This document shows, piece after piece, positions 164 to 24,373 of a DNA stretch of 26,152 nucleotides (its first letter is position 1; the number at the start of each line of letters is the position of its first letter). The translations under genes were made by a program, and so were the position numbers. The stretch is from IMG/VR virus record IMGVR_UViG_3300007734_000524, positions 1 to 26,152 of that record, one strand, 5' to 3'. The stretch comes from a virus. A model generated the notes under the pieces. It had not been told where the DNA came from. It saw only the letters and a list, made by a program, of their open reading frames with translations, and did not search any database.

Positions 164-2530
164 CTAATTCACCGCAAACTGCATGCCGCGCGCGCGTGCT
201 TCCTTGCTCAGCTGGTTGAACAGCTCCGACGTACTCTGCACGCCGTATACGTTCAGCGTGCCGATGGCGAGGCCGCCTCTGCCCAGCGCGCCGTTGGGCG
301 TGATGCTGCCGCCGGTGCCAGCCGGGTTGAACAGCTCCGGTCCACGCTCGCCCACCAAGTATGCGCCCGCACTGCCCATCACAGCGCCGCCGCCGGCTTT
401 CTTGCCTGCCACAGACACAGTGCCCATAGCAGGCGCACCGAACCCTTTCACGTCTATCACGCTCTGCTTGAGTTCTTCTCTGATGGTTGTAATACGCAGC
501 GTCACTTCCCTGCTCTGTACGCTGTTGTACTCGGTCGCAATCTCGCGAAACTCTTTCGCCGTCAGCTTCGCGGCGTCTTGCGCCTTCTTCAAGTCTGGCT
601 GGATGTGATTGCTCACGTCGCCGCTGATGCTGTTCACGAAGGATGCGAACGAAGCCATACCGGCCTCGTTCTCACTCGCGAATGCGCCGGCGTATGTCTT
701 GCGCGCGTCTGCCAGCAGCGTGGCTGCGGTCTGCACCAAGATCGTGTCCTTGATCGCCGTGCTGTTGGCGATGCCAAGCGCTGCCGCTTCGGCTTCAATG
801 CGAGTGATCTCAAGCGCGCTCAGGCCGTCCTTCGCATCGCTGGCTAGTTGATCCAGCACAATGCCTTCCTTTATGCGCGTGGCCACTTGCGTCTGCAGCA
901 GCAGGTCGGCTGCTTTGTCCGCTTCCAGCGCAGCAGTTGCCTCGCCCAGCTTCGTCGTATAAGTCCCCGTCTCAACCGCTGCTAGCTGCACAGCCGTCAG
1001 GCCGGTGCCTTGCGTTGCCACCAGCAGCTTGTGCGCTTCGTCCTGCTCGCGTATCTTAATATTCAGGTGGTCCATCGCCAGCGTATAATCGTCGCCGCTG
1101 ATTTTGCCCTCGGCTTGCTTCTCGTTCAGCTCTTGCACGTCCTGCTTCAGGTCGCGGTGCAGCAGCGCCGACTTGTCGATGGCATCGCTGTTGTCCTTGA
1201 TAGTCCCGGTGCCGGCCAAGATCGCCGCTTGATTTTTGCCGTGCGCTGCGGTCAGGTCGTCCACAATCTTCTGGTGCTTTGCGGTTGTCTCTGCCAGCTT
1301 CTCGGTGTCGGTGTCGTATTCTTTTGACGCGCCGCTCAAAGTAGAAAAGCTGTCGGCCTGTAACCTGAGCGCTTCTTTGTTGTTGTCGATTGCTTCCCTG
1401 TTTAGATTTAGCTCAATGGTTGATTTGTGCGTGGCATCATACAGCGCGGTGAAGCGCGTCTCGGATTGCTCCATCGCATATGCTTGATTGACACCCGCCA
1501 CCTTAAGTAAATCGTAGGCTTTCGCGAAGTCTATAACTCTGTAAGTGGTTTCCTCGTAGCCGCTGGTGGTTTTGTTTGTCGTAATTTCTACAGCCTGCCC
1601 AAACTGTACGACGTCTACATATCCATTCTTGAACGCATCAACCAAGTCGTGCTGCGCATCAGCTTGCCTGTTTACTCTCGCGACGTACTCCTCAGCTGCG
1701 TTCGCCATTTCCGTGATCACGTCTGCGCCAGCTTTCACTGCCGGCACAAAAGTTTTACCGGTTTCAGTAGCCAAGCCAGCCATCGCATCTTTCATGGTGC
1801 TCAGCTTGCCGCTGGCGGTCTCAGCTTGCAGTGCCATCATGCCGCCGAAGTCTTGCTTCATGCTGGCCAGTAACACCTGCACGCCGCTGTCAGCCGGCAC
1901 CAAACCTTTCTCCACCAGCTTAGCCATCTCACCGGTTGTCACGCCGGCAGCGTCTGCCAAGTAGCGCAAAGCCGGTATGCCCTTTTCTGTGAGTTGGTTA
2001 AGCTCCTGTGTGGAAATTTTGCCCTTAGCCCCCATCTGTCCTAAGGCTAAAGTGATGGAGTCGATTGTTGCCTTGCCACCGCCTAAGCCAGCGGCTGCAT
2101 CGCCCACCGCCGTCAGCGTTGGGATCACGTCTTCGGCCGCCGTGCCCATCGCCATCAAGCGCTTGGCGGCTGCCTGTATATCTTGAAACTCAAACGGCGT
2201 TTTGTCTGCAAACGACTTCAAGTCGTTCAGCATCTGCCCGGCTTTCTCTCCGCTGCCGAGCATAGTCGTGAAGGCGATCTTGGATTGTTCTAACGCATCA
2301 GCCAGCTCGAAGCTTCCCACGATTGCATTTTTCAACGCACCCACAATCGCAGACAATCCCATCTGCAAGCCCAAGCCGCCGGCGATCGCGCTCATGGTCT
2401 TGCCCATGCCCTCGAACGCGCCGCCGGCCTCTTTCGCCTTCTTGCCTACATTCTCGACCTCTTGCCCAGCCTTCTTCATCGGCTCGCTGGCTTCGTCGAC
2501 CGCAATGATGCGCACCTTTACATCAGCCAT
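164..2530 (-). CDS. Tape measure protein
   Basis: This protein sets tail length and is threaded through the tail tube. It has 788 residues, mostly Ala-rich helix. Residues about 75-270 match the conserved N-terminal tape-measure domain (SKIAFTTMLGSGEKAGQML, then DKTPFEFQDIQAAAKRLMAM and QLTEKGIPALRYLA). The middle (about 390-680) is long charged and Ala-rich helix with coiled-coil character. The C-terminus carries the common phage motif GAYLVGERGPELFNP followed by GSITPNG. It starts just inside the end of the tail chaperone extension (8-base overlap), the canonical G/GT-tape measure arrangement. At 788 residues it predicts a fairly short tail if the usual rule of about 1.5 angstrom per residue applies; that length is an inference. 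Confidence 0.95.
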   Translation of the reverse strand: MADVKVRIIAVDEASEPMKKAGQEVENVGKKAKEAGGAFEGMGKTMSAIAGGLGLQMGLSAIVGALKNAIVGSFELADALEQSKIAFTTMLGSGEKAGQMLNDLKSFADKTPFEFQDIQAAAKRLMAMGTAAEDVIPTLTAVGDAAAGLGGGKATIDSITLALGQMGAKGKISTQELNQLTEKGIPALRYLADAAGVTTGEMAKLVEKGLVPADSGVQVLLASMKQDFGGMMALQAETASGKLSTMKDAMAGLATETGKTFVPAVKAGADVITEMANAAEEYVARVNRQADAQHDLVDAFKNGYVDVVQFGQAVEITTNKTTSGYEETTYRVIDFAKAYDLLKVAGVNQAYAMEQSETRFTALYDATHKSTIELNLNREAIDNNKEALRLQADSFSTLSGASKEYDTDTEKLAETTAKHQKIVDDLTAAHGKNQAAILAGTGTIKDNSDAIDKSALLHRDLKQDVQELNEKQAEGKISGDDYTLAMDHLNIKIREQDEAHKLLVATQGTGLTAVQLAAVETGTYTTKLGEATAALEADKAADLLLQTQVATRIKEGIVLDQLASDAKDGLSALEITRIEAEAAALGIANSTAIKDTILVQTAATLLADARKTYAGAFASENEAGMASFASFVNSISGDVSNHIQPDLKKAQDAAKLTAKEFREIATEYNSVQSREVTLRITTIREELKQSVIDVKGFGAPAMGTVSVAGKKAGGGAVMGSAGAYLVGERGPELFNPAGTGGSITPNGALGRGGLAIGTLNVYGVQSTSELFNQLSKEARARGMQFAVN

Positions 2531-3082
2531 CGTGTTCGTTCTCCATGCGCTCTATGTCGCGCACAAGCGCCAGCACCTGCGGCTGGCTGTTTGCCAGTGC
2601 CATCAGGTTGCCAGAGCTTGCCTTGAAAGTCTTGAATGCGTTGTATACGTTCAGCATGGCGGCCATGCGTTGCAGCATGCCAGCCGGCTGGTCAAGTAGA
2701 CCGCCCTGCTCTGGCAGTGCGTGCCAGCGTTCACATTGCCATGCCATGCGTAATTCCATAGGTGCCTCGGCGCCATCGCGCGCGCAGCGCATGGCGTTTA
2801 TTATGCTTTTGGGTCGATCTCCATCGCCTCGGTGTATACGCTGGCAAGCTTCTCGCTCAGCCAGCGCACAGCGCTCACCTTCATCTCGCCCACATCTGAC
2901 AGCTTCATCTCCGGCGACTTGATCCACCCCGAAGACACAGCTGCGCGCACTATCTCGCCCCGGTACTTTGCCAGCGGCAGCTCGGCCGCCGGCTTGATCA
3001 GTACCGCGAAGGCCTCGACGTGGCGCTGCTTTAGCTCATGCAGCACCACGTCAACGCCCAGCGACTCGTTTTGCAGTAACAC
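2523..3082 (-). CDS. Tail assembly chaperone, -1 frameshift fusion (GT-like)
   Basis: Frame 0 (2801-3082) and a second open frame ending at 2523 are joined by a -1 shift at 2807-2813. The fusion would be about 186 residues: 92 from the first frame, then SIINAMRCARDGAEAPMELR and a further stretch ending in DIERMENEHDG. The second frame has no separate credible start: the ATG at 2927 would read an out-of-frame, Arg-rich section of the first gene. In lambda-like phages the GT product binds the tape measure while the tail-tube-binding part is shared with G. The fusion ends 8 bases inside the tape-measure gene, suggesting translational coupling. Confidence 0.85.
2771..2813 (-). promoter_or_regulatory. 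Programmed -1 frameshift signal in tail chaperone gene
   Basis: On the minus strand the heptamer C CCA AAA (bases 2813-2807) sits in the correct phase of frame 0, so tandem slippage gives CCC AAA. The frame-0 stop TAA follows after one codon. About 10 bases downstream a hairpin can form between CGCCAT (2796-2791) and ATGGCG (2776-2771), with a very GC-rich loop that may extend the stem. Slippery heptamer, nearby stop and downstream stem are the classical parts of such a signal. The frameshift itself is known for this gene position in many phages; the frequency here is unknown. Confidence 0.85.
2801..3082 (-). CDS. Tail assembly chaperone, unshifted product (G-like)
   Basis: A 93-residue acidic protein directly after the tail tube gene and before the tape measure, the standard place for the tail assembly chaperone. 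It begins MLLQNESLGVDVVLHELK and ends EAMEIDPKA. The chaperone coats the tape measure before tail tube polymerisation. The slippery heptamer CCCAAAA lies 2 codons before its TAA stop, so a minority of ribosomes should continue into the longer form listed separately. I do not recognise a specific chaperone family from the sequence; the call rests on gene order, size and the frameshift signal. Confidence 0.85.
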   Translation of the reverse strand: MLLQNESLGVDVVLHELKQRHVEAFAVLIKPAAELPLAKYRGEIVRAAVSSGWIKSPEMKLSDVGEMKVSAVRWLSEKLASVYTEAMEIDPKA

Positions 3083-3087
3083 CGCCT

Positions 3088-3480
3088 TTACGCGTTGGTG
3101 CCGACGGTCAGCGCGCTGTTGCCACTCAAGGACACAGACGCCACCACCAGCCCGTCATAGGGCGCAGAAAACTGCACGCCCGTCACAATCGCCGTGCCGC
3201 TCAACTTGATCGCACCGGACGCCACGCCTTCCGGGTTTACGACCAAAGTCTGCGAAGCGCCCGGCGCCAGCTCTGTGTCGAACAAGTCCGTGGTGTCATC
3301 GTATAGCATCTCAACGGTTGCCTCGAACGAAGTCACCGTGCTCAGCTGCCCACGGAAAGTGTCCGCTGCCGCCGTGATGTCCACCATGTTGATCGCAGTC
3401 GTGACGCTTGCGCTGCGCACGTGCGTCAGCGTGTCCGACCCGAACTTCACCACCAATCCTTTGCCTGAAAATACAGCCAT
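3088..3480 (-). CDS. Major tail (tube) protein
   Basis: A 130-residue beta-rich protein that should form the rings of the tail tube. It begins MAVFSGKGLVVKFGSDTLTH and has the typical tube-protein layout: short N-terminal strand, a region around VDITAAADTFRGQLSTVTSFE, then an Ig-like or tube-fold set of strands ending in SLSGNSALTVGTNA. It lies between the tail terminator gene and the tail chaperones, as expected. Its short length and Thr/Ser/Ala richness suit single-domain siphophage tube proteins of the type with Pfam tail-tube families. There is no added surface domain at the C-terminus. Confidence 0.85.
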   Translation of the reverse strand: MAVFSGKGLVVKFGSDTLTHVRSASVTTAINMVDITAAADTFRGQLSTVTSFEATVEMLYDDTTDLFDTELAPGASQTLVVNPEGVASGAIKLSGTAIVTGVQFSAPYDGLVVASVSLSGNSALTVGTNA

Positions 3481-4755: not shown

Positions 4756-7290
4756 CTAGGCCTGCGTGCCGTAGATCGCGCCTTCCGCAGTCGTTGTGGA
4801 AAAGCCGAAGCGTGCGCCGCTGAAGATCGCCGTCTGTCCGTACTCCTCGTAGAGATACGGGTTGCGGGAAACCACCAGCCCAGCGCGCTCAACCAGCACG
4901 GTGCTGGATGCGAAGTTCACCAGCGAGACTGACTTCAGTCCGGTTGTCGCTGCCGGCATAGCAGCCGACACGAGCACTGGATAGCCGTACAGCATCGCGC
5001 CACTCTGCGAACTGCCAGCCTGCTCGACTTGATTGAACGCGAAGTTTGTCGTGGTCAGTGCGCGGATCAAAGCCAGCGTGGCGTTCTTCATCACCCACAC
5101 CGGGCCGGGTGATCCGATGGTGTAAGGCTCTGGCAGTGAGAAAAACAAGCCAAGCACGTCAGCGATGGTCAGCGCAGCAGCACCCGCGAAGGTGTAGCCC
5201 GCTGTGCCGCCCGCCTGAATGCCGAGCGGTTGTGACGAGCCGGAGCCGGTCACCACGTAGGTGTTCTCAACATTCGCAAGGCCACGGCCGAGCACGTTGA
5301 TCAAGAAGCCGTCCAGCGATGCCTGTTGGTCAGCGAGTAATTCGTTCGATGCTTTTATCATATTGCTGAAGCTAAATACAGACACCAAGCGCGACGTGAA
5401 CGTCGGCAGGCTCTCAGTGTATGCGTTTGCTTCGGCGCGCAGCACGAAGGCCGCTTTGTTGTTCTCAGTCGGCACCTGCACACTGTCCAGCACAGTCTGG
5501 ATAATCATCGCACCAGCGCGGCGCGCAATCGCCTGCTCGTCGCGTTTAGCAACGATCTGGTTATACAGCCCTTCCGGTACCAGCACACCGCCGGCCGTGC
5601 CGGTGCCTTCGGTCATGCCAGTCTTGGTGCTGCTGTAGTCCGCTGTCTCGGTCCTGCTGTAGTAGTTCTTCTGTCCGGTGCGCAGCCAGTGCGTGAAGGC
5701 CTTGTGGCCGTCGTGATCACCGCCCAGCGCGCCCACTACTGCGGCCGCCTTGCCCGCCTCAACCTTCGGCTCGTCAATCTTTGCGGTCAGCGCAGCGATT
5801 GACGCCTTCAACTCTGCAATCTCGTTTGTGTTGTCCATCGTCGTGTCCTCTGTTATGTTTTCAATACCGTCGTTTTCGGTTGCCACGCTTGCCGATGCCT
5901 TCACGGCATCCTCTGGCGTTGCAGCTTCCCCGCTCTTCATCGTTGCCGCTTCGTTGCGCGGCTCAGCTGGCGTCGGTGTCAGTGACGCTTCAGCAACCCA
6001 CCACATTTTGATCCATGACACGCTGGCGGTCTTCTGCTCCCGCTCCACCAAGTGCGCCACCGCGCCGCTTGACCAGCCCAGCTTGCCATCCTCTGCCAGC
6101 TTGTAGATGCTGGCCTCGTATTCGTCCCGCAGCGCCAGTTGCGCTTCGACCCATAGGCCGATGTCATCCTTGCGCAGCTTGCCGCTTCCCAGCACGCGCT
6201 TGCCGATCATCGCGTCCTGCCCATGATGATACAACACCGGCAGCGCTTCGACCGTCCCCAGCTCAGTGTCGGCTGTGAAATAATCGCCGGTCAAGTCCGG
6301 GCTTTGCATGTCCGTGAAGCGCACCAGATAGCCGCCGATCTTGCCTTCGCCCAGCGCCTTGACTGCGCCGCCCACCATCTGCACGTTTATGTTCTTCGTC
6401 ATTTTGCCACCTCGTATTTTCTGAATGTTGTCCGCAGTGCGTGCTCGTGCCCACGCTGCCGCGCGCTTGCTGTCCGTCATCGAGCCGCCGCCCCATAGCG
6501 CGTGCGCCACCACGCCGTTGCTCGGATAGCCTTCAGCGCCCACCATCGCGGCCGGCGCGTTCAGGTCCACCATGTGCCGCGCGAACCACGCCGCCATGCG
6601 CGCCGCCTTGTCTTCCGACACGGTGCCGCCGGCCATCAGCCGCGCCTCGCGCAATGTCTGCGGTGTCAGGCCGTCCCCGCCGTAACCCTCGTTCACCCAG
6701 CTGATGCCCTGCCGCGCGTTGGCCGCCATCCATGCCGGCGCGACGATCTTGATCTCGACCTCGTCTTGCCCCAAGTCCTCTTCGTCTCCCGGCTGCGGCT
6801 GCATCGACTGCGCCAGCTCGTCAGTCAGCGGTCCGCCCTGCACCCACGCATCGCAGCGCCGCGCGCTTGCGCACTTGAAGTCGAAGGCCTCGCAGTAGCC
6901 AAGATCGCCAGCGTCTACCACGTCCCACGCATCCACGCCGCCTATGCCGTCAGCAATGCACGCCCGGATGCGGCTGGTGATGTTGAAAGCCGCGCAGTTG
7001 CCGCAGCGTGCCGTCTTGACTTCCTCGACCGAAACGCCCCAGCGGTCAGCCGCCGCGCCCCAGTAGTCGGCGTTCTCTTGCCCCGGATCAAGCGGCCCGT
7101 AGTTTGCCACCGCGATGGCGTTGTCGCGCGCTTCCAAGTTTGCCGCTATGTTCTGCGTCGCAATCGGGCACACATCACCTTCCGGCGCCTCTGTATCGCC
7201 TTCTAAGCCGTTTTCAGCGTACTCGGCACCCTCTGGCCCCTGCAGCACAATCGCGCCGCTGTCGTCGATTTCAATGGTAATGGTTGTCAT
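4756..7290 (-). CDS. Fused Cys-rich domain / prohead protease / HK97-type major capsid
   Basis: One 844-codon frame holds several normally separate head proteins. Residues 1-150 form a Cys-rich region (C96, C99, C111, C133, C140, C146; motifs ARCGNCAAFN and FDFKCASARRCDAW). Residues 180-285 form a phage accessory domain (ANARQGISWVNEGYGGDGLT, then AWFARHMVDL, VVAHALWGG). Residues 300-445 are an HK97-family (U35/S78) prohead protease with candidate catalytic His in LYHHG (355-356) and Ser in GWSSGA (407-408). Residues 485-515 look like a short coiled-coil scaffold, and 550-844 are the capsid fold (TAGGVLVPEGLYNQIV, then GSGSSQPLGIQ). Protease maturation of the capsid in cis is expected. Internal starts at 6402 and 5838 may give the protease-capsid and capsid alone (see separate entries). 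Confidence 0.9.
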   Translation of the reverse strand: MTTITIEIDDSGAIVLQGPEGAEYAENGLEGDTEAPEGDVCPIATQNIAANLEARDNAIAVANYGPLDPGQENADYWGAAADRWGVSVEEVKTARCGNCAAFNITSRIRACIADGIGGVDAWDVVDAGDLGYCEAFDFKCASARRCDAWVQGGPLTDELAQSMQPQPGDEEDLGQDEVEIKIVAPAWMAANARQGISWVNEGYGGDGLTPQTLREARLMAGGTVSEDKAARMAAWFARHMVDLNAPAAMVGAEGYPSNGVVAHALWGGGSMTDSKRAAAWARARTADNIQKIRGGKMTKNINVQMVGGAVKALGEGKIGGYLVRFTDMQSPDLTGDYFTADTELGTVEALPVLYHHGQDAMIGKRVLGSGKLRKDDIGLWVEAQLALRDEYEASIYKLAEDGKLGWSSGAVAHLVEREQKTASVSWIKMWWVAEASLTPTPAEPRNEAATMKSGEAATPEDAVKASASVATENDGIENITEDTTMDNTNEIAELKASIAALTAKIDEPKVEAGKAAAVVGALGGDHDGHKAFTHWLRTGQKNYYSRTETADYSSTKTGMTEGTGTAGGVLVPEGLYNQIVAKRDEQAIARRAGAMIIQTVLDSVQVPTENNKAAFVLRAEANAYTESLPTFTSRLVSVFSFSNMIKASNELLADQQASLDGFLINVLGRGLANVENTYVVTGSGSSQPLGIQAGGTAGYTFAGAAALTIADVLGLFFSLPEPYTIGSPGPVWVMKNATLALIRALTTTNFAFNQVEQAGSSQSGAMLYGYPVLVSAAMPAATTGLKSVSLVNFASSTVLVERAGLVVSRNPYLYEEYGQTAIFSGARFGFSTTTAEGAIYGTQA
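5836..5851 (-). promoter_or_regulatory. Internal ribosome-binding site and start for capsid part
   Basis: AGAGGA (5851-5846) lies 7 bases before an in-frame ATG (5838-5836, residue Met485, MDNTNEIAELKASIAAL). The start is at the boundary after the protease domain and just before the coiled-coil scaffold segment of the capsid. It would yield a 360-residue scaffold-plus-capsid protein without protease, giving the excess of capsid over protease that a head needs. Proteolysis alone could do the same, so the site is a candidate only. Confidence 0.6.
6400..6413 (-). promoter_or_regulatory. Internal ribosome-binding site and start for protease part
   Basis: Within the capsid fusion gene, GAGGTGG (6413-6407) lies 4 bases before an in-frame ATG (6402-6400, residue Met297, MTKNINVQMVGG). 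Met297 is precisely at the boundary between the N-terminal Cys-rich/accessory region and the prohead protease. The match to the anti-Shine-Dalgarno is as good as those of independent genes here. A product of 548 residues (protease plus capsid) would follow. This is an inference from the site and its position. Confidence 0.6.
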
Positions 7291-11256: not shown

Positions 11257-11605
11257 TGACTGCCTCGATTTGAATCGGGCCGAGGTCATCGCTGCCGCCG
11301 ATTGGCTGCGGCACGTTGCCCCAGCCGTAGCGCAGCAGGTTTAATCGGTCGCCGGAATTCTTACTCCGAAACATTGACCGCAGCAGCAGGTCAAGCGCGG
11401 TCATGGTGCCGTTGACTGGCTCCGCTCCCAGTGCTTGAATGTATGCCTTCAGCGCGGTGATTGTCTGCGGTCTGCCGTGCGGATTGCCGCTGACGCCCTT
11501 CGGCCAGCGGTGCTCAGTTGGCGGTATGTTGCCGCCCCTGCCAGCGCCGGGCAGCAGCGGCTTAGCCGGTTTGCTCGTTGTTTGTTTGCGTTTAGCTGCC
11601 ATCAT
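11183..11605 (-). CDS. terS: Putative terminase small subunit
   Basis: A 140-residue basic protein directly before TerL. The segment RWPKGVSGNPHGRP (about 33-46) matches the conserved KGxSGNPxGRP motif of a phage family common next to large terminases. A helical section follows (TMTALDLLLRSMFR). Small terminases recognise the packaging site, and this motif class is usually annotated as TerS or a related protein of the DUF5681 type. The start overlaps the methyltransferase stop (ATGATG); the second ATG at 11602 is an equal alternative. Its C-terminal end overlaps the large-subunit gene. Confidence 0.8.
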   Translation of the reverse strand: MMAAKRKQTTSKPAKPLLPGAGRGGNIPPTEHRWPKGVSGNPHGRPQTITALKAYIQALGAEPVNGTMTALDLLLRSMFRSKNSGDRLNLLRYGWGNVPQPIGGSDDLGPIQIEAVNAYSYDAAVAAIAARPDPDSTEPS

Positions 11606-12837
11606 GCACGCTCAATCGCCAGCGCCGGAAATGCGGTTGCCATGCGCTCAAGTATAACGGCGCAGTATTCCGCGCTGATCTCAATGCCGCGACACTTGCG
11701 CTGCAGATTTTCGCACGCCACCATCGTCGTGCCGCTGCCGCAAAATGGCTCATAGATTGTCTCGCCTTCGTCGGTGTGAAGCTGAATAAAGCGCGATGGC
11801 AATTCAACCGTGAACGGGGCGGAATGCTCCTCTTGTTTCGTTGCCGGCAAATTCCACACTGCCTGCATTGCCCAAGGTTGCTCAACGTCGCGTCTCACAA
11901 CCTTGGGCAATGCAGGATTGTGAAACGTCGCAAGAAATTCCCAATTCTGGTCAATCATATCCGCGCCGGGCCCGACACCATTAAGCCCGCCGCTTTTCGG
12001 CCAGCAACGAACATATCTCATTAGCCAGCCAAGAGAACGGAAGGCATTACACCACTCGTCAAGATTCAGACGTGTTTCAATATCGCCGCCAGTGTGTAAA
12101 TGTCGCCGCTGCGCGGCGACATTTATCACGATACGCTCATTGACTACGCCAACAATTCCAGCGGCTATTGCTTCCGTAAACGCAAAGATTTCCGCGTTTG
12201 TTCGCTCGCCTTCGTATTCCTTCCCGCACCAATATGGCGGCGACGTAACGCACAGTTGCGCGGTATCACCACCCATCACACGCCGCACATCCTCGCTCTT
12301 CGTGCTATCTCCGCACAACAGACGATGCTCGCCAATGCGCCACAGGTCGCCAGTCTTGACCTGCCATTTCTTGTTCAACTCCGCCGCGCGGTCAATCTGC
12401 GGCTCGGCGTCTACGGTTTCTGGCTCGCTAAAATCTTCCAGCAGCTCCGCCAGCTCATCATCCACAAACAGCCCGTCCAGCAGCTCGCGCTCGGTTGCCA
12501 GCAGGTCGGCGATAACATCAGCATCCCAGTCGGCCAGCTCAGCGGTGCGGTTGTCGTACAGCGCCAGCCGCGTCTTTTGCTTTGGCGTCAGCCCGGTGCG
12601 CCGCACTGCGATGATGGTCTCGCCGTCAGCGTCCACCACCTGCACCTTCTCAATGCCGGCACGCGCTGCGGCCTCAATCGTTGCGTTGCCAGCCAGCACC
12701 ACGCCGTGCTCGTCAATCACTATGCTGCGTGCGGCTCCGACTTCGCCGAGCGCCTTCTCCAGCATCCCGACGTTGCGCGGGTTGTGGCGCCGAGCGTTGC
12801 GCGGGTCCGGCGTCAGGTCTGCCAGCGTCTCAATCAT
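11602..12837 (-). CDS. ParB-like nuclease domain fused to DNA methyltransferase
   Basis: A 411-residue protein. Residues about 9-110 form a ParB/Srx-like domain (PDPRNARRHNPRNVGMLEKA, then VVLAGNATIEAAARAG), common at the N-terminus of phage methylases. The methyltransferase part has motif IV TSPPYW at 198-203, fitting a cytosine-N4 or adenine-N6 enzyme, and the AdoMet-binding FCGSGTT near residue 365. The circular order (IV before I) is the beta class. Start at 12837 chosen because it begins 10 bases after the holin-like gene stop; the longer frame from 12924 would overlap that gene. Two perfect inverted repeats (11862-11916 and 12097-12125) lie inside the coding region between the motifs. 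Phage methylases usually protect genome DNA from restriction. Confidence 0.88.
   Translation of the reverse strand: MIETLADLTPDPRNARRHNPRNVGMLEKALGEVGAARSIVIDEHGVVLAGNATIEAAARAGIEKVQVVDADGETIIAVRRTGLTPKQKTRLALYDNRTAELADWDADVIADLLATERELLDGLFVDDELAELLEDFSEPETVDAEPQIDRAAELNKKWQVKTGDLWRIGEHRLLCGDSTKSEDVRRVMGGDTAQLCVTSPPYWCGKEYEGERTNAEIFAFTEAIAAGIVGVVNERIVINVAAQRRHLHTGGDIETRLNLDEWCNAFRSLGWLMRYVRCWPKSGGLNGVGPGADMIDQNWEFLATFHNPALPKVVRRDVEQPWAMQAVWNLPATKQEEHSAPFTVELPSRFIQLHTDEGETIYEPFCGSGTTMVACENLQRKCRGIEISAEYCAVILERMATAFPALAIERA
11862..11916. repeat. Perfect 19-bp inverted repeat inside methyltransferase gene
   Basis: The arms 11862-11880 and 11898-11916 are perfectly complementary (CCTGCATTGCCCAAGGTTG and its complement), with a 17-base spacer. 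The repeat is translated without disrupting the frame (HNPALPKVVRRDVEQPWAMQ). It falls between catalytic motifs IV and I, a region where such enzymes vary. No U-tract follows, so it is not a standard terminator. Confidence 0.9.
12097..12125. repeat. Perfect 13-bp inverted repeat inside methyltransferase gene
   Basis: The arms TAAATGTCGCCGC (12097-12109) and its complement (12113-12125) are separated by 3 bases (TGC). Coding read-through is in frame (INVAAQRRHLH). It lies about 180 bases from the larger repeat in the same gene. A stem of this length and GC content would be very stable in mRNA. Confidence 0.9.
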
Positions 12838-12847
12838 TGCGGCTGGC

Positions 12848-13030
12848 TTAGCCTTGCCCACTGTCCTCGATCCCCGTGGCGATGCTGTACGCTGCAAGCG
12901 CAGCCACCAGCGTGTTGGCCGCATCGTTGCCGGCCATGCCGCCGGTCTGCCACGCGCCGATGATCGCGACTGCCGATGCTACCAGCGCCCAGAACTTGCG
13001 GCTCTGCAGTAGGTTGTGGATTTTTAGCAT
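12848..13030 (-). CDS. Small membrane protein, possible holin
   Basis: A 60-residue protein: MLKIHNLLQSRKFWALVASA, then two hydrophobic segments (about 13-30 and 38-54) and a short acidic tail EDSGQG. The pattern SRKFWA...VAIIGAW..., followed by a second helix ending in ATGIED, is widespread in phages and is frequently called a holin or hypothetical membrane protein. The start is well set: GGAGA lies 5 bases before the ATG. The longer frame around it is only an accidental extension into the neighbouring methyltransferase gene. The lysis genes lie elsewhere (22783-24373), so a lysis role is not assured. Confidence 0.75.
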   Translation of the reverse strand: MLKIHNLLQSRKFWALVASAVAIIGAWQTGGMAGNDAANTLVAALAAYSIATGIEDSGQG

Positions 13031-13040
13031 TGTGATCTCC

Positions 13041-14345
13041 CTATATGTGCAGCGGTTGCTGTGCTGGTGATTGTACTGCATGCGCAATGCGTGCGCGCGC
13101 GATGGCGATGTACTCGGCGTCTTGCTCGATGCCGATGAAGCCGAAGCCGTCCATGCGTGCGGCCTTGCCGGTTGAGCCGCTGCCCATGAACGGGTCGAGG
13201 ACCGTGCCGGCTGGCGGCGTGACGAGCTTGCACAAGTAGCGCATGAGGGCAGTCGGCTTGACTGTTGGGTGGTGATTCTTCTGCGCTCGCGTTCTATTTT
13301 CTGGATTGCGATTATTGTGAATAATTCCTTCATCACTATGAATTCCGTAAGTAGAATGTGCATTTTCTTTGTCTTCAAATTCATCGCACCCTTCGTTCCT
13401 GTCCGCCTTGCTCGCTTTTGCGCAGTAGAAGAAGCGAGCAGCGGAGCCGGTGTCGGCGTAGCCCATATCATCCATCGGCGGCTTTGCGTTGTCGCCGCCG
13501 AACGTATTGCCGCCACTATTGTGACGCACCGCCGTGCCCGCCTTAACGTTTGGGAACAGCGCCGTCACCTCGTCGCTGCCGTCGTGGATGATGTTGGCGG
13601 GCCAGCGGCCGGGAGGCGCTGCGCCGGTTGCCTGCTTCTGCGCGTCGTCGTTCTCGCTGCCCGGCTCGCGCATGTTGCCGCTCTTGTAGTTCCGCGAGGA
13701 CGGCCACGTCTCGACCGTATCTCCCACCCGGCACCCGTCGATGTTCAGCGCCCCGGTCCCGTGCTGCAGGACGTTCGCCGCGACCGTGCCTTCCAGCGGC
13801 TTGCGTGCCACGATGATCGGCTCCCACGCTGGCTTCAGCGCCGTGCCCCAGCCGGCCCACTGCGCGGCCTCGGCGGTTGCCGGAGCGGTGATCGCGGAAA
13901 GGTCAATTCCCCCGCTCTCACCGCCAACGATTCGCCCGCCCCGAATGTCGCATTTTGGGGTTGCGGCGCGGTCCGTCCTTCGTCCAACTATCTCTCGTTC
14001 TGCGCCAGCCGCCTTGTCTATCGCCTTGCTCACGTCGTGCGACTTCGGAAACCCGCTGCCGTACACCCACATCACCGTGTCGCGGATCTCCCAGCCTGCG
14101 TCCTCAATCGCCACGGCCAGCCGGTGGAATGTGCGTGTGCCGCCGAACGCCAGCAGGTGCGCGCCCGGCTTCGCCACCCGCAGCGCTGCGCTCCAGAACG
14201 CCACGCCCGGCACGCCGTGGTCCCAGTCCTTGCCCATGAAGCTCAGCCCATAGGGCGGATCACATACCACGGCATCGACGCTGGCGGCTGGCAGCCCGGC
14301 CATCACCGGACGGCAGTCACCGTGCAGCAGGTCTAGTACGGCCAC
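13041..14345 (-). CDS. DNA methyltransferase (DPPY type)
   Basis: A 434-residue beta-class methylase, likely adenine-N6 or cytosine-N4. It opens with LLHGDCRPVMAGLPAASVDA and has motif IV DPPYGLSF at about 29-36. The AdoMet-binding motif I is near the C-terminus (DPFMGSGSTG, about 384-393), followed by GFIGIEQDAEYIAIA. The 300-residue insertion between them (KSHDVSKAIDK, EIVGRRTDRAA, FFYCAKASKADRNEG, HHPTVKPTALMRYL) is typical for phage and host enzymes of this group. The start is a GTG that lies inside the end of the 37-residue gene at 14333, suggesting coupling. The target sequence cannot be predicted. It probably protects phage DNA from host restriction. Confidence 0.9.
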   Translation of the reverse strand: MAVLDLLHGDCRPVMAGLPAASVDAVVCDPPYGLSFMGKDWDHGVPGVAFWSAALRVAKPGAHLLAFGGTRTFHRLAVAIEDAGWEIRDTVMWVYGSGFPKSHDVSKAIDKAAGAEREIVGRRTDRAATPKCDIRGGRIVGGESGGIDLSAITAPATAEAAQWAGWGTALKPAWEPIIVARKPLEGTVAANVLQHGTGALNIDGCRVGDTVETWPSSRNYKSGNMREPGSENDDAQKQATGAAPPGRWPANIIHDGSDEVTALFPNVKAGTAVRHNSGGNTFGGDNAKPPMDDMGYADTGSAARFFYCAKASKADRNEGCDEFEDKENAHSTYGIHSDEGIIHNNRNPENRTRAQKNHHPTVKPTALMRYLCKLVTPPAGTVLDPFMGSGSTGKAARMDGFGFIGIEQDAEYIAIARARIAHAVQSPAQQPLHI

Positions 14346-14446
14346 TTGAACCAGCGCGCCACCAGCACAAGCTCAATCGCGATGCCGGCAATCAGCACCG
14401 CCGCCATCAGCAGCCCCGCCATGAAGTGCTTGTTGTCCGGTGTCAT
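14333..14446 (-). CDS. 37-residue single-pass membrane protein
   Basis: Short ORF encoding 37 residues: MTPDNKHFMAGLLMAAVLIA, then GIAIELVLVARWFKWPY. A single hydrophobic helix (about 9-31) is followed by a basic aromatic end, giving likely N-out/C-in topology or the reverse. Its ATG overlaps the stop of the preceding gene (ATGA) and its end overlaps the GTG start of the methyltransferase by 13 bases, so it is translated as part of the chain. Function unknown: small phage membrane protein, possibly lysis-related. Confidence 0.6.
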   Translation of the reverse strand: MTPDNKHFMAGLLMAAVLIAGIAIELVLVARWFKWPY

Positions 14447-14976
14447 GCGATGGGAACTTTTGCCATAAATGTTATGCCAGCGTTTATTAACTCCTTCCAT
14501 GTTATATAAATAAACTGATTGCCATCAGGATTATTTTTGCATTCAAATTTTTGCACGCCCTCAAAATTTATATAGCTGTATAACTGCTCTGTCACAATCA
14601 CAGCCGCTCCGAGCAAAGTGCCTTTATAAATATATGCCTGTACCGTCATGTACGGCGTTAAATAATTACTGTTCTCAATGCCCCGCAATCGTTTTGTAAA
14701 TTCAGTCTGAAAGTTTGTTTTAAGTTTTGTGCGGATTGTAAATGTCTCATAGTTTGTTGCCCCATATTGCACTCTGGATGCAATGCCTCTGGCTCCGTCT
14801 TGAGTTATTTGCAAAAAGTCAATGCCGCAACTGCAATCCAACACAGAAGCTATTTTCTCCTTTACGCCTTCCACTTGTAAAATATTGCCACCACCGCACT
14901 GCTGTTCGATTTGCGGCCATACAATATTTGCGAACGCGTCACCGCTTTTGGCAATTTGTAGCTCCGCTTCATTCAT
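14443..14976 (-). CDS. Putative PD-(D/E)XK-type nuclease or unknown protein
   Basis: A 177-residue protein with A/T-rich codons compared with its neighbours, suggesting separate origin. It starts MNEAELQIAKSGDAFANIVW; the segment VLDCSCGIDFLQI, followed by GARGIASRVQYGATNYETFT and IRTKLKTNFQTEF, resembles a phage family whose central GID...GIA.RVQ.....TFTIR pattern I remember, often placed next to methylases. A restriction-endonuclease-like fold is possible, but the catalytic residues are not certain from sequence. Start chosen at 14976 (GAGGGTG upstream; ATG overlaps the stop of the upstream methylase), not the ATG at 15003. It ends in an ATGA overlap with the 37-residue gene. Confidence 0.65.
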   Translation of the reverse strand: MNEAELQIAKSGDAFANIVWPQIEQQCGGGNILQVEGVKEKIASVLDCSCGIDFLQITQDGARGIASRVQYGATNYETFTIRTKLKTNFQTEFTKRLRGIENSNYLTPYMTVQAYIYKGTLLGAAVIVTEQLYSYINFEGVQKFECKNNPDGNQFIYITWKELINAGITFMAKVPIA

Positions 14977-16084
14977 GACGGATGCACCCTCGCTCAACCG
15001 CAATTTTTACCACGTCAGATTTAATCTCGCACCCGCGCGCCAAGCGCCCCAGCCGGGCTGCTGCTAACAGCGTTGTGCCGCTGCCGGCAAACGGATCAAG
15101 CACAAGGTCGCCCGGTTTGGTCGCGTGCCTGATGTATCCCTCAATCAAGCCGTCAGGCTTTTGCCATTGGTAGACGCGCTCAATCGAGCGTGCAGGATGC
15201 GCCATGTCTTGCGATGCGCATAACTCCGTTAGCAGCGGGCAGTCCAGCTCGCCAGCATCTGAGCCAACAAAATATAGCACAGCCTGATAATTTAAGAAGT
15301 ATTGCATCTTGGGCGCTGGCCCCATTGTGTTGCGGTATGTCCATGTCAGCACCTGAGCCAGCGGTAAATTGTGACGCTCGCAAACGTTTAGATAGGCTCG
15401 CAACTCTGCCGGATATGCGCCAACAAACACATAAGCTCTGCCGGTCGATTTTACTTTTCTCCATGCCAATGGCAGCCACTCTACAAACTGGCTGATGTCT
15501 GGCACGTCTGTCATAAATGGCGGGTCTGTCAGTAGCAGGTCGCATTGTGGCTGATGCTTTATCCACTGCAATGCATCAGATTGTTGGATGATAGGCGCGT
15601 CTGGTCTTGCGCGCATTTGCTTGCCAATTTTTACGCGCTCGTCTCGCACCTTTTCCTGCCGCATGTATTTGAGCACCTCACTGACCGTCTGCACGCCTTC
15701 GCGCACCTGCTCAAACTGGTGCATCGGCATGGCCGCCAGCTGCTGCGCCATCACGCTTAGATTTTTGCTAATTCCTATATCTTTTAGAGTTGGCAAAGTA
15801 TAGTCCTGATCGCGGACTATACTTTTTTTAGGCTGCCCAACTTTAGCTCTATCTTCCCCAACAGCCAGCATCTCGCCCAGCTTGCGCAGCGCCTCAATCT
15901 TGATCGCCAGCGCGTAGGCCATTGCCTCCTCGCCCAGCTGTTGCCGGCGCGCGTAAATCTGCGCGGCGTGCGCCATGTCCATCACCTTCTTCGTCTCGCC
16001 GATTGTCTTGGCTTCTGCCAGCGCGGTGCGCGCCCGGTCAAGCTGCACCACCATCAAATCCGCTTTTATGGTTTTGTCGTTCAT
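14969..16084 (-). CDS. DNA methyltransferase (DPPF type) with helical N-terminal domain
   Basis: A 371-residue protein. The N-terminal 140 residues are helical: AKTIGETKKVMDMAHAAQIY, LAIKIEALRKLGEML, then TLPTLKDIGISKNLSVMAQQ, a segment often found in phage proteins joined to methylases or ParB domains. The C-terminal methylase has motif IV DPPF (187-190) and the AdoMet motif DPFAGSGTT (about 330-338), suggesting an adenine-N6 enzyme. The start at 16084 is preferred over 16096 since GGAGACCAAC, the shared leader of the window, precedes it. A perfect inverted repeat (15795-15825) lies in the linker between KKSIVRDQDY and the second helical block. Probable role: protection of phage DNA. Confidence 0.88.
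   Translation of the reverse strand: MNDKTIKADLMVVQLDRARTALAEAKTIGETKKVMDMAHAAQIYARRQQLGEEAMAYALAIKIEALRKLGEMLAVGEDRAKVGQPKKSIVRDQDYTLPTLKDIGISKNLSVMAQQLAAMPMHQFEQVREGVQTVSEVLKYMRQEKVRDERVKIGKQMRARPDAPIIQQSDALQWIKHQPQCDLLLTDPPFMTDVPDISQFVEWLPLAWRKVKSTGRAYVFVGAYPAELRAYLNVCERHNLPLAQVLTWTYRNTMGPAPKMQYFLNYQAVLYFVGSDAGELDCPLLTELCASQDMAHPARSIERVYQWQKPDGLIEGYIRHATKPGDLVLDPFAGSGTTLLAAARLGRLARGCEIKSDVVKIAVERGCIRHE
15795..15825. repeat. Perfect 12-bp inverted repeat inside methyltransferase gene
   Basis: Arms AAAGTATAGTCC (15795-15806) and complement (15814-15825) with a 7-base spacer. On the plus strand the second arm runs into a T-tract, so it resembles a terminator in the opposite direction; no plus-strand gene is seen to need it. 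It encodes part of a linker (SIVRDQDYTL), A/T-rich relative to its surroundings, and does not break the frame. Confidence 0.9.
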
Positions 16085-16103
16085 GTTGGTCTCCATTGTG
16101 ATT

Positions 16104-16337
16104 TTACTCTATATCTGGATGTTCGTGTGGCAATTGGATCACGGGTCGGTATAACTTTCCCGTGTCGTAGAACATATCGGCCTCGCCTTCCGGGTCTGAC
16201 CCTTCCCTAAATCCATCGGCGAGGTCGATGATGCCGGCCAAGTAGTGCCGGTTTTCGTCCGGCACAAACTCCCACAGCAGGTAGCCGCTCGTCACGCAGC
16301 GGTCTGTAAACATGCGCTCAGGGTTTCTGTCTGTCAC
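16104..16337 (-). CDS. Hypothetical protein, 77 residues
   Basis: The frame begins at a GTG that overlaps the TGA stop of the 3D-domain gene (GTGA). The product starts TDRNPERMFTDRCVTSGYLL and continues WEFVPDENRHYLAGIIDLAD, ending in VIQLPHEHPDIE. It is acidic and looks like a small soluble protein; I do not recognise a family. A longer frame upstream, to 16613, is Arg-rich and is a shadow of the 3D-domain gene. The start is coupled to the upstream stop. The next gene (methylase) starts 20 bases further on. Confidence 0.65.
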   Translation of the reverse strand: MTDRNPERMFTDRCVTSGYLLWEFVPDENRHYLAGIIDLADGFREGSDPEGEADMFYDTGKLYRPVIQLPHEHPDIE

Positions 16338-17094
16338 GGCATCACATAGGCCGGCGAAGTAATGCACCCCGACGGGCAGAAGTGGTCGGTGACCACCTCG
16401 GCGTCCGGCCACCACGCTGGCGCCGGCTGCAGTAAGTCGATGAAGGCGCTGCCGTCGTACAAGTCTTGGATCGCGCCGCCCCGGTCCACGCAGTAGAAAC
16501 TGCGGTTCAGCTTCTCGATGAAGATGCGCTGGCGCAGGTCTACCGACGGCGGGCACGCCGCGCCGACGCCCGCCCAGCTGCTCCACGGCTCGCCCAGTAG
16601 CTTGCTGCGGCACGTGCCGCCCATCGGGTGCTGCTTGTCCTTGATCCAGTTCGTCGGGTAGCAGTTCGTCCCACCAAGCGCCGGCCAGTAGTAGCTGACG
16701 CGCACGATGAACACCTTGAACGGCTTGTTTGCCGGCAGCGCGGTCATCGGCTTCGCGTCTGGCGTCGGCTGTATTTCGCCTGCTTCCGGGTCGTGCTCCG
16801 GCGGCAGGCTTACGGTTTTGGGGTTGCGGCTGCCTTTGGGAAGATGTAGAACGTGCTGCCCTGCATAATCATGATGGTGTTGCCGGCTGCGTCCTGCAGC
16901 ATCATCGGCTGGCCCACGGTCATCGGCGCCACGGTTGCGGTCGGTGCTGGCGGCGTGGCGGTCTCAGCGTGCGATGTGCCGGTGCTGCCAGCCACTGCCA
17001 ACGTCAGCATGGCAGCGCCGATGAAGGCGGCCACGCTCAGCTTGACTGCTGCGGTCTTCGTAACGGTCGGTATCTTGAACGGTATGTTTTTCAT
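16334..17094 (-). CDS. Signal peptide-3D domain protein by -1 frameshift
   Basis: A -1 shift at 16816-16822 would join the 94-residue signal-peptide protein to a second open frame ending at 16334, giving about 253 residues. The second frame encodes TVSLPPEHDPEAGEIQPTPD, a Pro-rich linker, then a 3D domain: GGTCRSKLLGEPWSSWAGVG, CPPSVDLRQRIFIE, CVDRGGAIQDL and FIDLLQPAP, carrying the three spaced Asp of the family. 3D domains are beta-barrel domains found in cell-wall hydrolases (MltA-related). The only ATG in the second frame before the domain (16747) has no ribosome-binding site, so fusion is the simplest way to express and secrete it. A single-base sequencing error in a homopolymer is the alternative. 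Confidence 0.65.
16778..16822 (-). promoter_or_regulatory. Likely -1 frameshift signal upstream of 3D domain
   Basis: Heptamer C CCA AAA (16822-16816) in frame 0 phase, two codons before TAA (16812-16810). Six bases later a stem can form between GCCTGC (16809-16804) and GCAGGC (16783-16778), with an inner CCGG/CCGG pairing. The 6-base spacer is close to ideal for a stimulatory hairpin. It is the same heptamer as in the tail chaperone gene of this window. No experimental evidence; inferred from the sequence. Confidence 0.65.
16810..17094 (-). CDS. Secreted small protein, unshifted product
   Basis: A 94-residue protein with a clear Sec-type signal: basic N-terminus KNIPFKIPTVTKTAAVKL, a hydrophobic stretch SVAAFIGAAMLTLAVAG, and a likely signal peptidase site after SHA. 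The mature part is Pro/Ala/Thr-rich (TATPPAPTATVAPMTVGQP) followed by LQDAAGNTIMIMQGSTFYIF. The second of two ATGs is preferred, since it has the same spacing to GGAGACC as the other genes with this leader. A CCCAAAA heptamer stands two codons before the TAA stop; see the frameshift product. Function of the short form is unknown. Confidence 0.75.
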   Translation of the reverse strand: MKNIPFKIPTVTKTAAVKLSVAAFIGAAMLTLAVAGSTGTSHAETATPPAPTATVAPMTVGQPMMLQDAAGNTIMIMQGSTFYIFPKAAATPKP

Positions 17095-17115
17095 CATGGT
17101 CTCCAGTATAGGCTA

Positions 17116-22782: not shown

Positions 22783-22995
22783 CTATCTGGTGCGGAACAT
22801 CGCCACGGTGCCCGCGATGGCGGCGCTGATGCCCGCCGACACGAAGCCCACCATGACGCTCATTTTTGCCACCTGCGCTTCCATCACCCGCTGGCGCGCG
22901 TCGGCCTCTGCCTGCACCGCCAGCAGCCGGTCGACCTTGTCTTCCAGCAGGCTCAGCCGCACCGCCACCGTCACGTTGATGCTGTCTTCGCTCAT
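22783..22995 (-). CDS. XhlA-like coiled-coil/membrane protein
   Basis: A 70-residue protein: MSEDSINVTVAVRLSLLEDK, then a coiled-coil LLAVQAEADARQRVMEAQVA and a C-terminal transmembrane helix (SVMVGFVSAGISAAIAGTVA), with a basic end FRTR. This layout fits XhlA-type hemolysin/holin accessory proteins. Its position after two wall hydrolases suits a lysis module. The true start is at 22995, overlapping the stop of the hydrolase gene (ATGA); an upstream ATG would add 13 residues. Confidence 0.75.
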   Translation of the reverse strand: MSEDSINVTVAVRLSLLEDKVDRLLAVQAEADARQRVMEAQVAKMSVMVGFVSAGISAAIAGTVAMFRTR

Positions 22996-23801
22996 ACTCG
23001 TTGCCCCACTATATCGGCCATGTCGTTCGTCCACGTCTCATGCGCGAACTGCCCACCGCTTGCGCTGCTCACAAACGCAAACGCCGCGCGCACCGTGCTG
23101 TCCAGATTGTGTACATATTGCACGTACTGCCGCGCCTTCTCGCTCTTGTCCACGCCCTCGGCCGGGTTGCTGAACTCAGTGATGAAGATCGCCTTCCCGA
23201 AGCGCGCATACTCTTTATAATGGTTGCCCTCGTTCGGGTCCGTCAGCCCCGGCACCGCCTGCCAGTAGCAGTGGCAGCCCACCCAGTCCACCGCGCTCAT
23301 CGCGCCCACGTTCACAGCGTCGATGAGAAACTGCCGCCACGGCTCGCGGAAACTTGGCAGCGCGCCGCCCGGTGACAAGCCCGGCCACCCCAGCAGCGCG
23401 TCCGGCAGCTCAGCCTTTATCAGCAGTGACAAGCCGGTCAGCCACTTGGCGAAGCCGGCGCCGCCATTCCAGCGCGCACCGCACCCGCCCTCGATGCTCA
23501 AGTTCGGCTCGTTGTGCAGCTCGAAGAGCCGCACGCCGGCCGCATAGTGCGCGTGCACCGCTTCCCGGCTGGCTGCCCATGCGCTCTGCGGCGATGCCAG
23601 CTGCTCGCCCTGCAGCATGATGCGCACCAGCACCAAGTCCACGCCGTGCGGCGCCAGCCACTGCACGGTCGCCGGATTTTCCCAGCTCAGCATTTTGTAC
23701 GCCTTGATCCGCCCGCGCTTGACGAACTCCTGCTCAGCCGGCAGTATCAGGTTGCCCCAGCTGCCGTCTGCGCTGCCGTGCAGCCCCCACAGCGCGCTCA
23801 C
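22992..23801 (-). CDS. Glycoside hydrolase-like protein (clan GH-A fold), putative endolysin
   Basis: A 269-residue TIM-barrel type enzyme. The acid/base motif LHNEPN has Glu98, and the nucleophile motif ITEFSN has Glu209, both typical of clan GH-A enzymes. Between them lie WRQFLIDAVN, VDWVGCHCYWQA and FREPW. It lies directly after the GH25 gene and before the XhlA-like gene, so it may act on cell-wall or surface glycans; the true substrate cannot be read. It starts with an ATG overlapping the GH25 stop. A lysis or virion-wall role is inferred. Confidence 0.75.
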   Translation of the reverse strand: MSALWGLHGSADGSWGNLILPAEQEFVKRGRIKAYKMLSWENPATVQWLAPHGVDLVLVRIMLQGEQLASPQSAWAASREAVHAHYAAGVRLFELHNEPNLSIEGGCGARWNGGAGFAKWLTGLSLLIKAELPDALLGWPGLSPGGALPSFREPWRQFLIDAVNVGAMSAVDWVGCHCYWQAVPGLTDPNEGNHYKEYARFGKAIFITEFSNPAEGVDKSEKARQYVQYVHNLDSTVRAAFAFVSSASGGQFAHETWTNDMADIVGQRV

Positions 23802-24373
23802 GGTAGCACCCGCCTGTTGGTATCCAAGTGTCCCTCAAAGCCCGGTAGACGCCCCTTGTCGCTGTGCTGCCATATCTGCCAGCTCGTCCAGCCGTCCGGC
23901 ATCGCCGGCTTGTCGGCTGTGGTGTAGTTTGCCACCCATAGCGGCAAGTGTCCCCACTGGTGCGGTCCGGCGCCGTAGCAGGCCGCCCAGCTGCCCCGGC
24001 TGCAGTAGATCATCGGCGTCAAGCCGCTGCGCAAAAAAGTCTCCAGCCAGCTGTCGATGTGCTTCTTCGTCAGGCCGGGTGCTTCGATGTCCAGCACATA
24101 CGGCTGATCAAGCTCGCGCGCCACGGTCAGCGCCAACGATGCCTGCGCGGATGCTGGAATGTTTGCAAGAAGAAACTGATAGCCGCTGACGGTGATCCCG
24201 CCGGCGCGCATGGCCGCCCAAGTGTGGCGCCAGAAGGTGCTGTCCACCTGCACGCCGTAGCAGTGCCGCGCCACTACGAAGCGCACACCGCCCTCGTCCC
24301 GAAGTCTGCGCCAGTTCAGCCGCTCAGGCGCCTGCCACTTCGATACATCTATGCCGACCTCGTAATCTGTCAA
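23798..24373 (-). CDS. GH25 lysozyme (muramidase)
   Basis: A 191-residue endolysin. The N-terminal GIDVSKWQ (D9), then VVARHCYGVQVDSTFWRHTW, and the catalytic pair in YVLDIEAPG (D95, E97) are typical of GH25. LWVANYT and WQIWQHSDKGRLPGFEGHLD complete the signature. The enzyme cleaves N-acetylmuramic acid bonds in peptidoglycan. No separate cell-wall-binding domain is present. It starts 12 bases after the previous gene and overlaps the next by 4. Confidence 0.92.
   Translation of the reverse strand: MTDYEVGIDVSKWQAPERLNWRRLRDEGGVRFVVARHCYGVQVDSTFWRHTWAAMRAGGITVSGYQFLLANIPASAQASLALTVARELDQPYVLDIEAPGLTKKHIDSWLETFLRSGLTPMIYCSRGSWAACYGAGPHQWGHLPLWVANYTTADKPAMPDGWTSWQIWQHSDKGRLPGFEGHLDTNRRVLP

Follow-up and report, generated by a model that had tools for sequence, protein, structure and literature searches.

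A candidate −1 frameshift in phages from metagenomes that would add a 3D-like domain to an exported protein

Programmed −1 ribosomal frameshifting in tailed phages is known for the tail assembly chaperones and for the addition of domains to capsid or tail proteins, as in phages A2 and T3 and in Listeria phages (PMC5009743). Among wall enzymes of the double-psi-barrel type, the third conserved Asp is the catalytic residue, namely D162 in YuiC and D308 in MltA (PMC4499186). Of two sources on phage phi-vML3, one lists its lysin, with two overlapping genes, as frameshifted (PMC10885494), and the other describes a lysin plus a smaller holin-like protein that come from one gene (PMC3111421). Apart from this lead, we found no frameshift described in the open-access literature for any 3D-type phage protein that is exported by Sec. 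A preliminary description of the DNA studied here had remarked that use of the heptamer in a lysis-type or surface gene is unusual.

The DNA analyzed here, called the window below, is an IMG/VR virus record of 26,152 bases in which most genes lie on the minus strand, as does the locus itself. The frame-0 ORF (16,813–17,097, minus strand) starts at an ATG at 17,097 that is served by a Shine–Dalgarno duplex of −5.2 kcal/mol, and has 95 codons (or 94 when the second Met is taken as the start) before a TAA at 16,812–16,810. It encodes an export signal, a Pro/Thr linker and a small conserved module. The signal-peptide-like N-terminus (16,966–17,097) consists of the hydrophobic VKLSVAAFIGAAMLTLAVA followed by SHA|ET, which is a likely cleavage point; the hydropathy of this stretch is 2.0 in the window and 2.4 in the relative L008, and an AF2 model places a helix at residues 12–36. 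In an alignment of orthologs the module reads MTVGQPMMLxDAxGNTxMIMQGSTFxxFPK (16,834–16,923); it is modeled at low confidence as three short strands, and sequence searches, including that of a phage collection, found no relative of it outside the frameshift clade. The 3′ end of the ORF reads ...GCC GCA ACC CCA AAA CCG TAA and contains the slippery heptamer C CCA AAA (16,816–16,822) in the X XXY YYZ phase required for a −1 shift, followed by a single sense codon (CCG) and the stop. In all eight contigs in which we found this arrangement the heptamer is conserved and the stop lies 0–1 codons downstream of it. The −1 frame (16,334–16,816) comprises 160 codons counted from ACC at 16,816, ends with TGA at 16,336–16,334 and would be added only after a shift, giving a predicted fusion of 94 + 160 = 254 amino acids with the junction ...ATPK|TVSLPPEHDPEAGEIQPTPDAK, also written ...ATPK-TVSLPP....

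Downstream of the heptamer there is a putative stimulatory stem, whose 5′ arm GCCTGC (16,804–16,809) begins after 6 nt, within the distance of about 5–9 nt expected at a −1 frameshift site, and is invariant in the eight contigs and whose 3′ arm is GCAGGC (16,778–16,783). These 6 bp enclose a loop of 20 nt that itself forms an inner helix and so lengthens the stem. The inner helix is CCGG/CCGG in the window and AATTGC/GCAATT in the other clade, that is, the pairing has been kept while the sequence has changed. The 49 nt located 3′ of the window heptamer fold with −20 kcal/mol (z −3.6), and the stems of four variants range from −18 to −22 kcal/mol, with z between −3.6 and −5.0. In addition, an SD-like AAAGG (16,833–16,837; duplex −4.1 to −4.3 kcal/mol) is found 10 nt 5′ of the heptamer, and AAGG or CAGG precedes the heptamer by 10–13 nt in both clades (CAGGA in the other clade). 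It is possible that this element is a further stimulator of the shift, but matches as short as this are common and make it a weak hint. A second in-phase heptamer, C CCA AAG at 16,840 in the window, reads CCCGAAG in the near relatives and was rejected as a shift site because it is not conserved in them.

The same split is present in seven further IMG/VR contigs from five metagenome datasets, which together with the window make up two clades; the frameshift family is known from these eight contigs only, all of them metagenomic. A search with the 3D-like part recovered three near relatives that are 90–97% identical and split in the same way, and a search with the N-terminal part recovered four more contigs of about 55% protein identity that keep the split. 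In this second clade the short ORF ends in ...AAC CCA AAA TAA or ...AGC CCA AAA TAG, and the stem follows 6 nt after the heptamer as in the window; the stop differs among the contigs (TAA or TAG). Between the two clades the heptamer and both arms match at every one of 19 bases, against 6 of 26 in the spacer and loop, which is about the level of chance. As the arms also fall within Ser-Leu and Ala-Gly codons, their conservation may partly be exerted at the protein level; the third positions are kept too. Two clades with differing loops, spacers and stops and identical heptamer and arms amount to a natural experiment. When heptamer and stem were searched as bare DNA in 2.9 million viral contigs, 44 loci were recovered, and the ORF was split in phase and continued in a long −1 frame at all seven loci of the 3D-like family and at none of the 37 others that have the same DNA motif. 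In 761 kb, both strands counted, the whole arrangement occurred only in the 3D genes of this family and in the tail chaperone genes that these phages carry. The chaperone pair of the window (2,523–3,082, minus strand) carries C CCA AAA (2,813–2,807) at its end, and because the tail chaperone of these phages uses CCCAAAA, the host ribosome presumably slips on it. The ortholog of the chaperone in L057, a relative of the second clade, likewise uses CCCAAAA.

Selection was estimated for the two frames separately. In close pairs dN/dS is 0.03–0.16 for the frame-0 ORF; for the −1 frame it is 0.03–0.10 in most close pairs and 0.2–0.4 in the pairs with L004, 0.40 being the highest value. Between clades the synonymous sites are saturated and dN is about 0.4–0.5. 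These values indicate that purifying selection is acting on both frames. Taken together, these sequence data make a true programmed −1 frameshift with two products, a 95-residue module protein and a 254-residue fusion of module and 3D-like domain, very probable. The preliminary description had proposed this shift from a short signal-peptide ORF ending just past a C CCA AAA in slippage phase, from a 6-bp stem 6 bases further on, from the lack of a ribosome-binding site at the only ATG of the 3D frame and from the use of the same heptamer by the tail chaperone; each of these points was confirmed, and the relatives with the same split whose search it had recommended were found, including the clade of 55% identity.

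The added part contains a predicted double-psi-barrel domain (16,427–16,705), which was compared with known families by profile and by fold. We call it 3D-like because it does not reach the Pfam cut-off and does not have all three Asp residues. Pfam does not recognize the window domain, which stays below the gathering cut-off, and the only Pfam 3D match was obtained for the more distant relative L020 (E 0.27; 11.9 bits against a cut-off of 23.8). From the three conserved Asp of PF06725, the second and the third are present, as D111 (16,484–16,486) and the catalytic-type D127 (16,436–16,438), respectively, while the position of the first is occupied by Cys88 (16,553–16,555) in the profile alignment. 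Owing to an insertion ahead of D127, the second and the third Asp lie 5 residues further apart than they do in YuiC. The 3D domain announced in the preliminary description can thus be retained as an open frame of 160 codons with a 3D-like domain, but not as a 3D domain by Pfam score or by its first Asp. A single hhalign comparison with a profile of phage 3D domains gave an E value of 9.4e-6, and the reversed-profile control gave 0.36. The query profile was made from eight relatives, and the 3D profile from eight real phage proteins plus a first row that is a composed, consensus-like 3D sequence, scored by Pfam as 3D with 3.6e-26. The AlphaFold model of the domain is of moderate quality (pLDDT 65) and Foldseek alone gave no significant match to it. 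Re-examination of the Foldseek candidates with this model yielded MltA (Z 7.5), YuiC (Z 7.1) and expansins (Z about 7), all double-psi barrels, and above them a diffocin baseplate protein (Z 8.9). A direct sequence search of the PDB returned nothing usable. All eight aligned sequences keep DxGG...D, including the catalytic Asp, as well as an S-Y-Y motif comparable to T91/Y93 of YuiC (PMC4499186). The domain probably works like MltA and YuiC, and on balance we lean towards a function in cutting peptidoglycan.

The strongest of the competing explanations accepts the shift and takes the domain not as a wall cutter but as an expansin-like or binding-only double-psi barrel that would decorate the surface, mask receptors or exclude superinfecting phages. 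Expansins align with the domain as well as MltA and YuiC do, a Cys stands in place of the first 3D Asp and the gene has a nuclease gene and DNA methyltransferases as neighbors and lies away from the GH25 endolysin, all of which would fit such a function. However, the conservation of the catalytic Asp within DxGG...D and of the S-Y-Y motif in 8 of 8 sequences (PMC4499186) speaks against it, and we regard this explanation as unlikely, but serious.

With respect to the genomic surroundings, the 3D gene is part of a tight operon and adjoins a VRR-NUC-like gene, and in the relatives the next gene overlaps its stop (ATGA). The GH25 endolysin gene is located away from it (23,798–24,373), so that the 3D-like protein is unlikely to be the main enzyme of lysis, and the label "lysis-type" used in the preliminary description needs softening, the endolysin being encoded by a gene of its own at another place in the window. 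GH25 is part of a likely lysis cassette (22,783–24,373, minus strand), together with an overlapping glycosyl-hydrolase-like gene (Glyco_hydro_cc, E 5e-4, just below the cut-off) and a gene for a small protein that may have a membrane segment. Three genes resembling DNA methyltransferases (11,602–16,096, minus strand) are clustered before the terminase, and other sets of them are present in the relatives. In the contigs examined, a gene for a small conserved membrane-like protein with the motif SRKFWALV has the 3D gene on one side and the terminase genes on the other (12,848–13,030, minus strand, in the window; 6,968–7,156 in L015; 6,411–6,590 in L019); this protein had no match to holins. Homology of the window to L002, L004 and L008 ends right past the 3D stop (around 16,334), where these relatives have a gene of ~160 amino acids (FDGWLMQDGKVRALVETKC) with the ATGA overlap and the window has an unrelated small ORF with a GTGA overlap, which suggests a recombination joint. 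Elsewhere in the window (4,756–7,290, minus strand), an ORF of 844 amino acids reads, by eye, like a major capsid protein with a protease fused to it.

In L019 and L020, which are more distant relatives, a single frame holds both a signal peptide and the 3D-like domain, and the N-terminal module is absent; these nearest one-frame relatives manage without a frameshift. In L019 the neighbors are those of the frameshift clade, with a VRR-NUC-like nuclease gene upstream and the small SRKFWALV protein downstream. The preliminary description had counted relatives with both parts in one frame against the shift; such a joining of signal peptide and domain does occur in L019 and L020, but because the N-terminal module is absent from both, they show the origin of the domain and do not refute the shift. 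As both carry a signal peptide together with the domain, the latter would ordinarily be exported, and the frameshift clade would differ from them in having an extra module and in making the domain optional. Neither half of the window gene had a relative in the phage collection, the L020 domain had no match in phages and the L019 domain none in plasmids. In prokaryote genomes there was one weak match in an archaeal MAG, L028, a genome in which PF06725 gave no hit; it corresponds to a distant 3D-like sequence YSYYNPALGGVNCHEDNW (contig positions about 3,198–3,380), 32% identical and with no Pfam match. The nearest terminases, some from Thermus phages and a halovirus, are about 30–35% identical.

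Translation of the 3D-like ORF on its own, either by reinitiation after the frame-0 stop or from the ATG at 16,747, would give two separate proteins and no fusion. The tight packing of genes makes such coupling common in phages, and in the clade of the window there is indeed an ATG (16,745–16,747, minus strand), 75 nt past the heptamer and the only one ahead of the domain core. However, it is not preceded by a Shine–Dalgarno sequence (duplex +0.1 kcal/mol, against −5.2 kcal/mol at the frame-0 start) and is absent from the second clade, where the −1 frames of L008 and L009 contain no ATG, GTG or TTG between heptamer and domain. An independent start in the −1 frame was discarded on these grounds. 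A domain made separately would moreover remain unexported, whereas L019 and L020 have signal peptides of their own, and the 19/19 conservation of heptamer and stem would be left unexplained. We consider this explanation improbable.

Transcriptional slippage usually takes homopolymers far longer than the C3 and A4 runs of the window. Slippage of this kind at the C/A tract would make the fusion from an altered mRNA, and a short C3-4A4 run does lie at the shift point, but the runs are short, with A4 after C3, and the other clade has AAAACCCAAAAT there; furthermore, such slippage needs neither a stem at the spacing of ribosomal frameshifting nor a strict X XXY YYZ phase, and it is very improbable. 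Finally, a single continuous ORF could have been broken by a mistake in sequencing or assembly or by decay of the gene, to which the homopolymer tract at the junction and the one-frame domain of L019 and L020 might point. This was ruled out by the dN/dS values of both frames and by the recurrence of the split, with differing stops, in eight contigs that come from several metagenome datasets and belong to two diverged clades, and its probability is negligible. All in all, the conserved split and signal, the lack of a start in L008 and L009 and the selection on both frames make an error, a pseudogene or an independent start very unlikely.

Returning to the programmed −1 frameshift, we propose that most ribosomes would reach the frame-0 stop and yield the 95-residue protein, exported and composed of a signal or anchor helix and the small module. 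A minority would pause at the stem 6 nt downstream of the heptamer, slip in tandem from C CCA AAA to CCC AAA, pass the stop and append the 160 residues with the 3D-like domain, and the resulting fusion of 254 residues would be exported as well. Slippage would thus set the ratio of domain-free to domain-bearing protein. From the features of the locus we infer a minority rate of slippage and the export of both products. The domain would most likely cut or bind peptidoglycan as MltA and YuiC do, with a role in limited wall remodeling or as an accessory in lysis. The excess of the domain-free form may dilute, anchor or restrain the fusion. It is even conceivable, if doubtful, that slippage sets the dose of a Sec-exported, wall-acting enzyme relative to a surplus of the form that lacks the enzyme and carries the same membrane or wall module, and so fixes a ratio of enzyme to restrainer outside the cytoplasm; we found no phage wall enzyme for which such regulation by frameshifting has been described. 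If the proposal is true, phages set the dose of an envelope-acting protein via the ribosome, and the locus would be a warning that gene callers miss or mis-start domains of this sort: the −1 part in the window has no proper start codon.

The locus shares with the tail assembly chaperone G/GT of lambda and most long-tailed phages (PMC5009743) a −1 tandem slippage that ends a short ORF and gives a minority fusion. However, the chaperone pair of the window adjoins an ORF of 788 amino acids (2,530–164) taken as the tape measure, whereas the 3D gene (17,097–16,334) does not, and the latter has an export signal and a 3D-like domain. The head protein of Lactobacillus phage A2, the coat protein of T3, other Ig-like additions and the Listeria phages PSA and A118 (PMC5009743) likewise provide a minority of the protein with an extra domain by slippage near a stop, but there capsid or tail proteins are extended, whereas the base protein of the 3D gene has a signal-peptide-like N-terminus, is encoded outside the window's head/tail block and would receive a domain that resembles a wall enzyme. 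Like the lytic transglycosylases Sps/YuiC and MltA (PMC4499186), the fusion combines a signal peptide with a predicted double-psi barrel, the catalytic Asp and a DxGGAI motif, and it differs from them in the Cys in place of the first Asp, the 5-residue insertion, the Pfam score below the cut-off, the N-terminal module and the frameshift. The 3D proteins of other phages (the YorM homologue of phi3T, gp2.8 of SPO1 and those of Listeria phage LP-124 and Carnobacterium phage cd3) also carry a phage-borne 3D domain, and that of cd3 has DRGGAIQ in common with the window and also lacks the first Asp. They are very distant, none being recovered by direct search with the window protein, and in the annotated regions compared the domain is held in a single CDS. 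The lysin of phi-vML3 resembles our locus in that overlapping frames yield two products in the context of wall degradation; it differs in that PMC3111421 has a lysin and a smaller holin-like protein encoded by one gene. Thus, the mechanism is already known, and what appears to be new is its use in an exported protein that resembles a wall enzyme.
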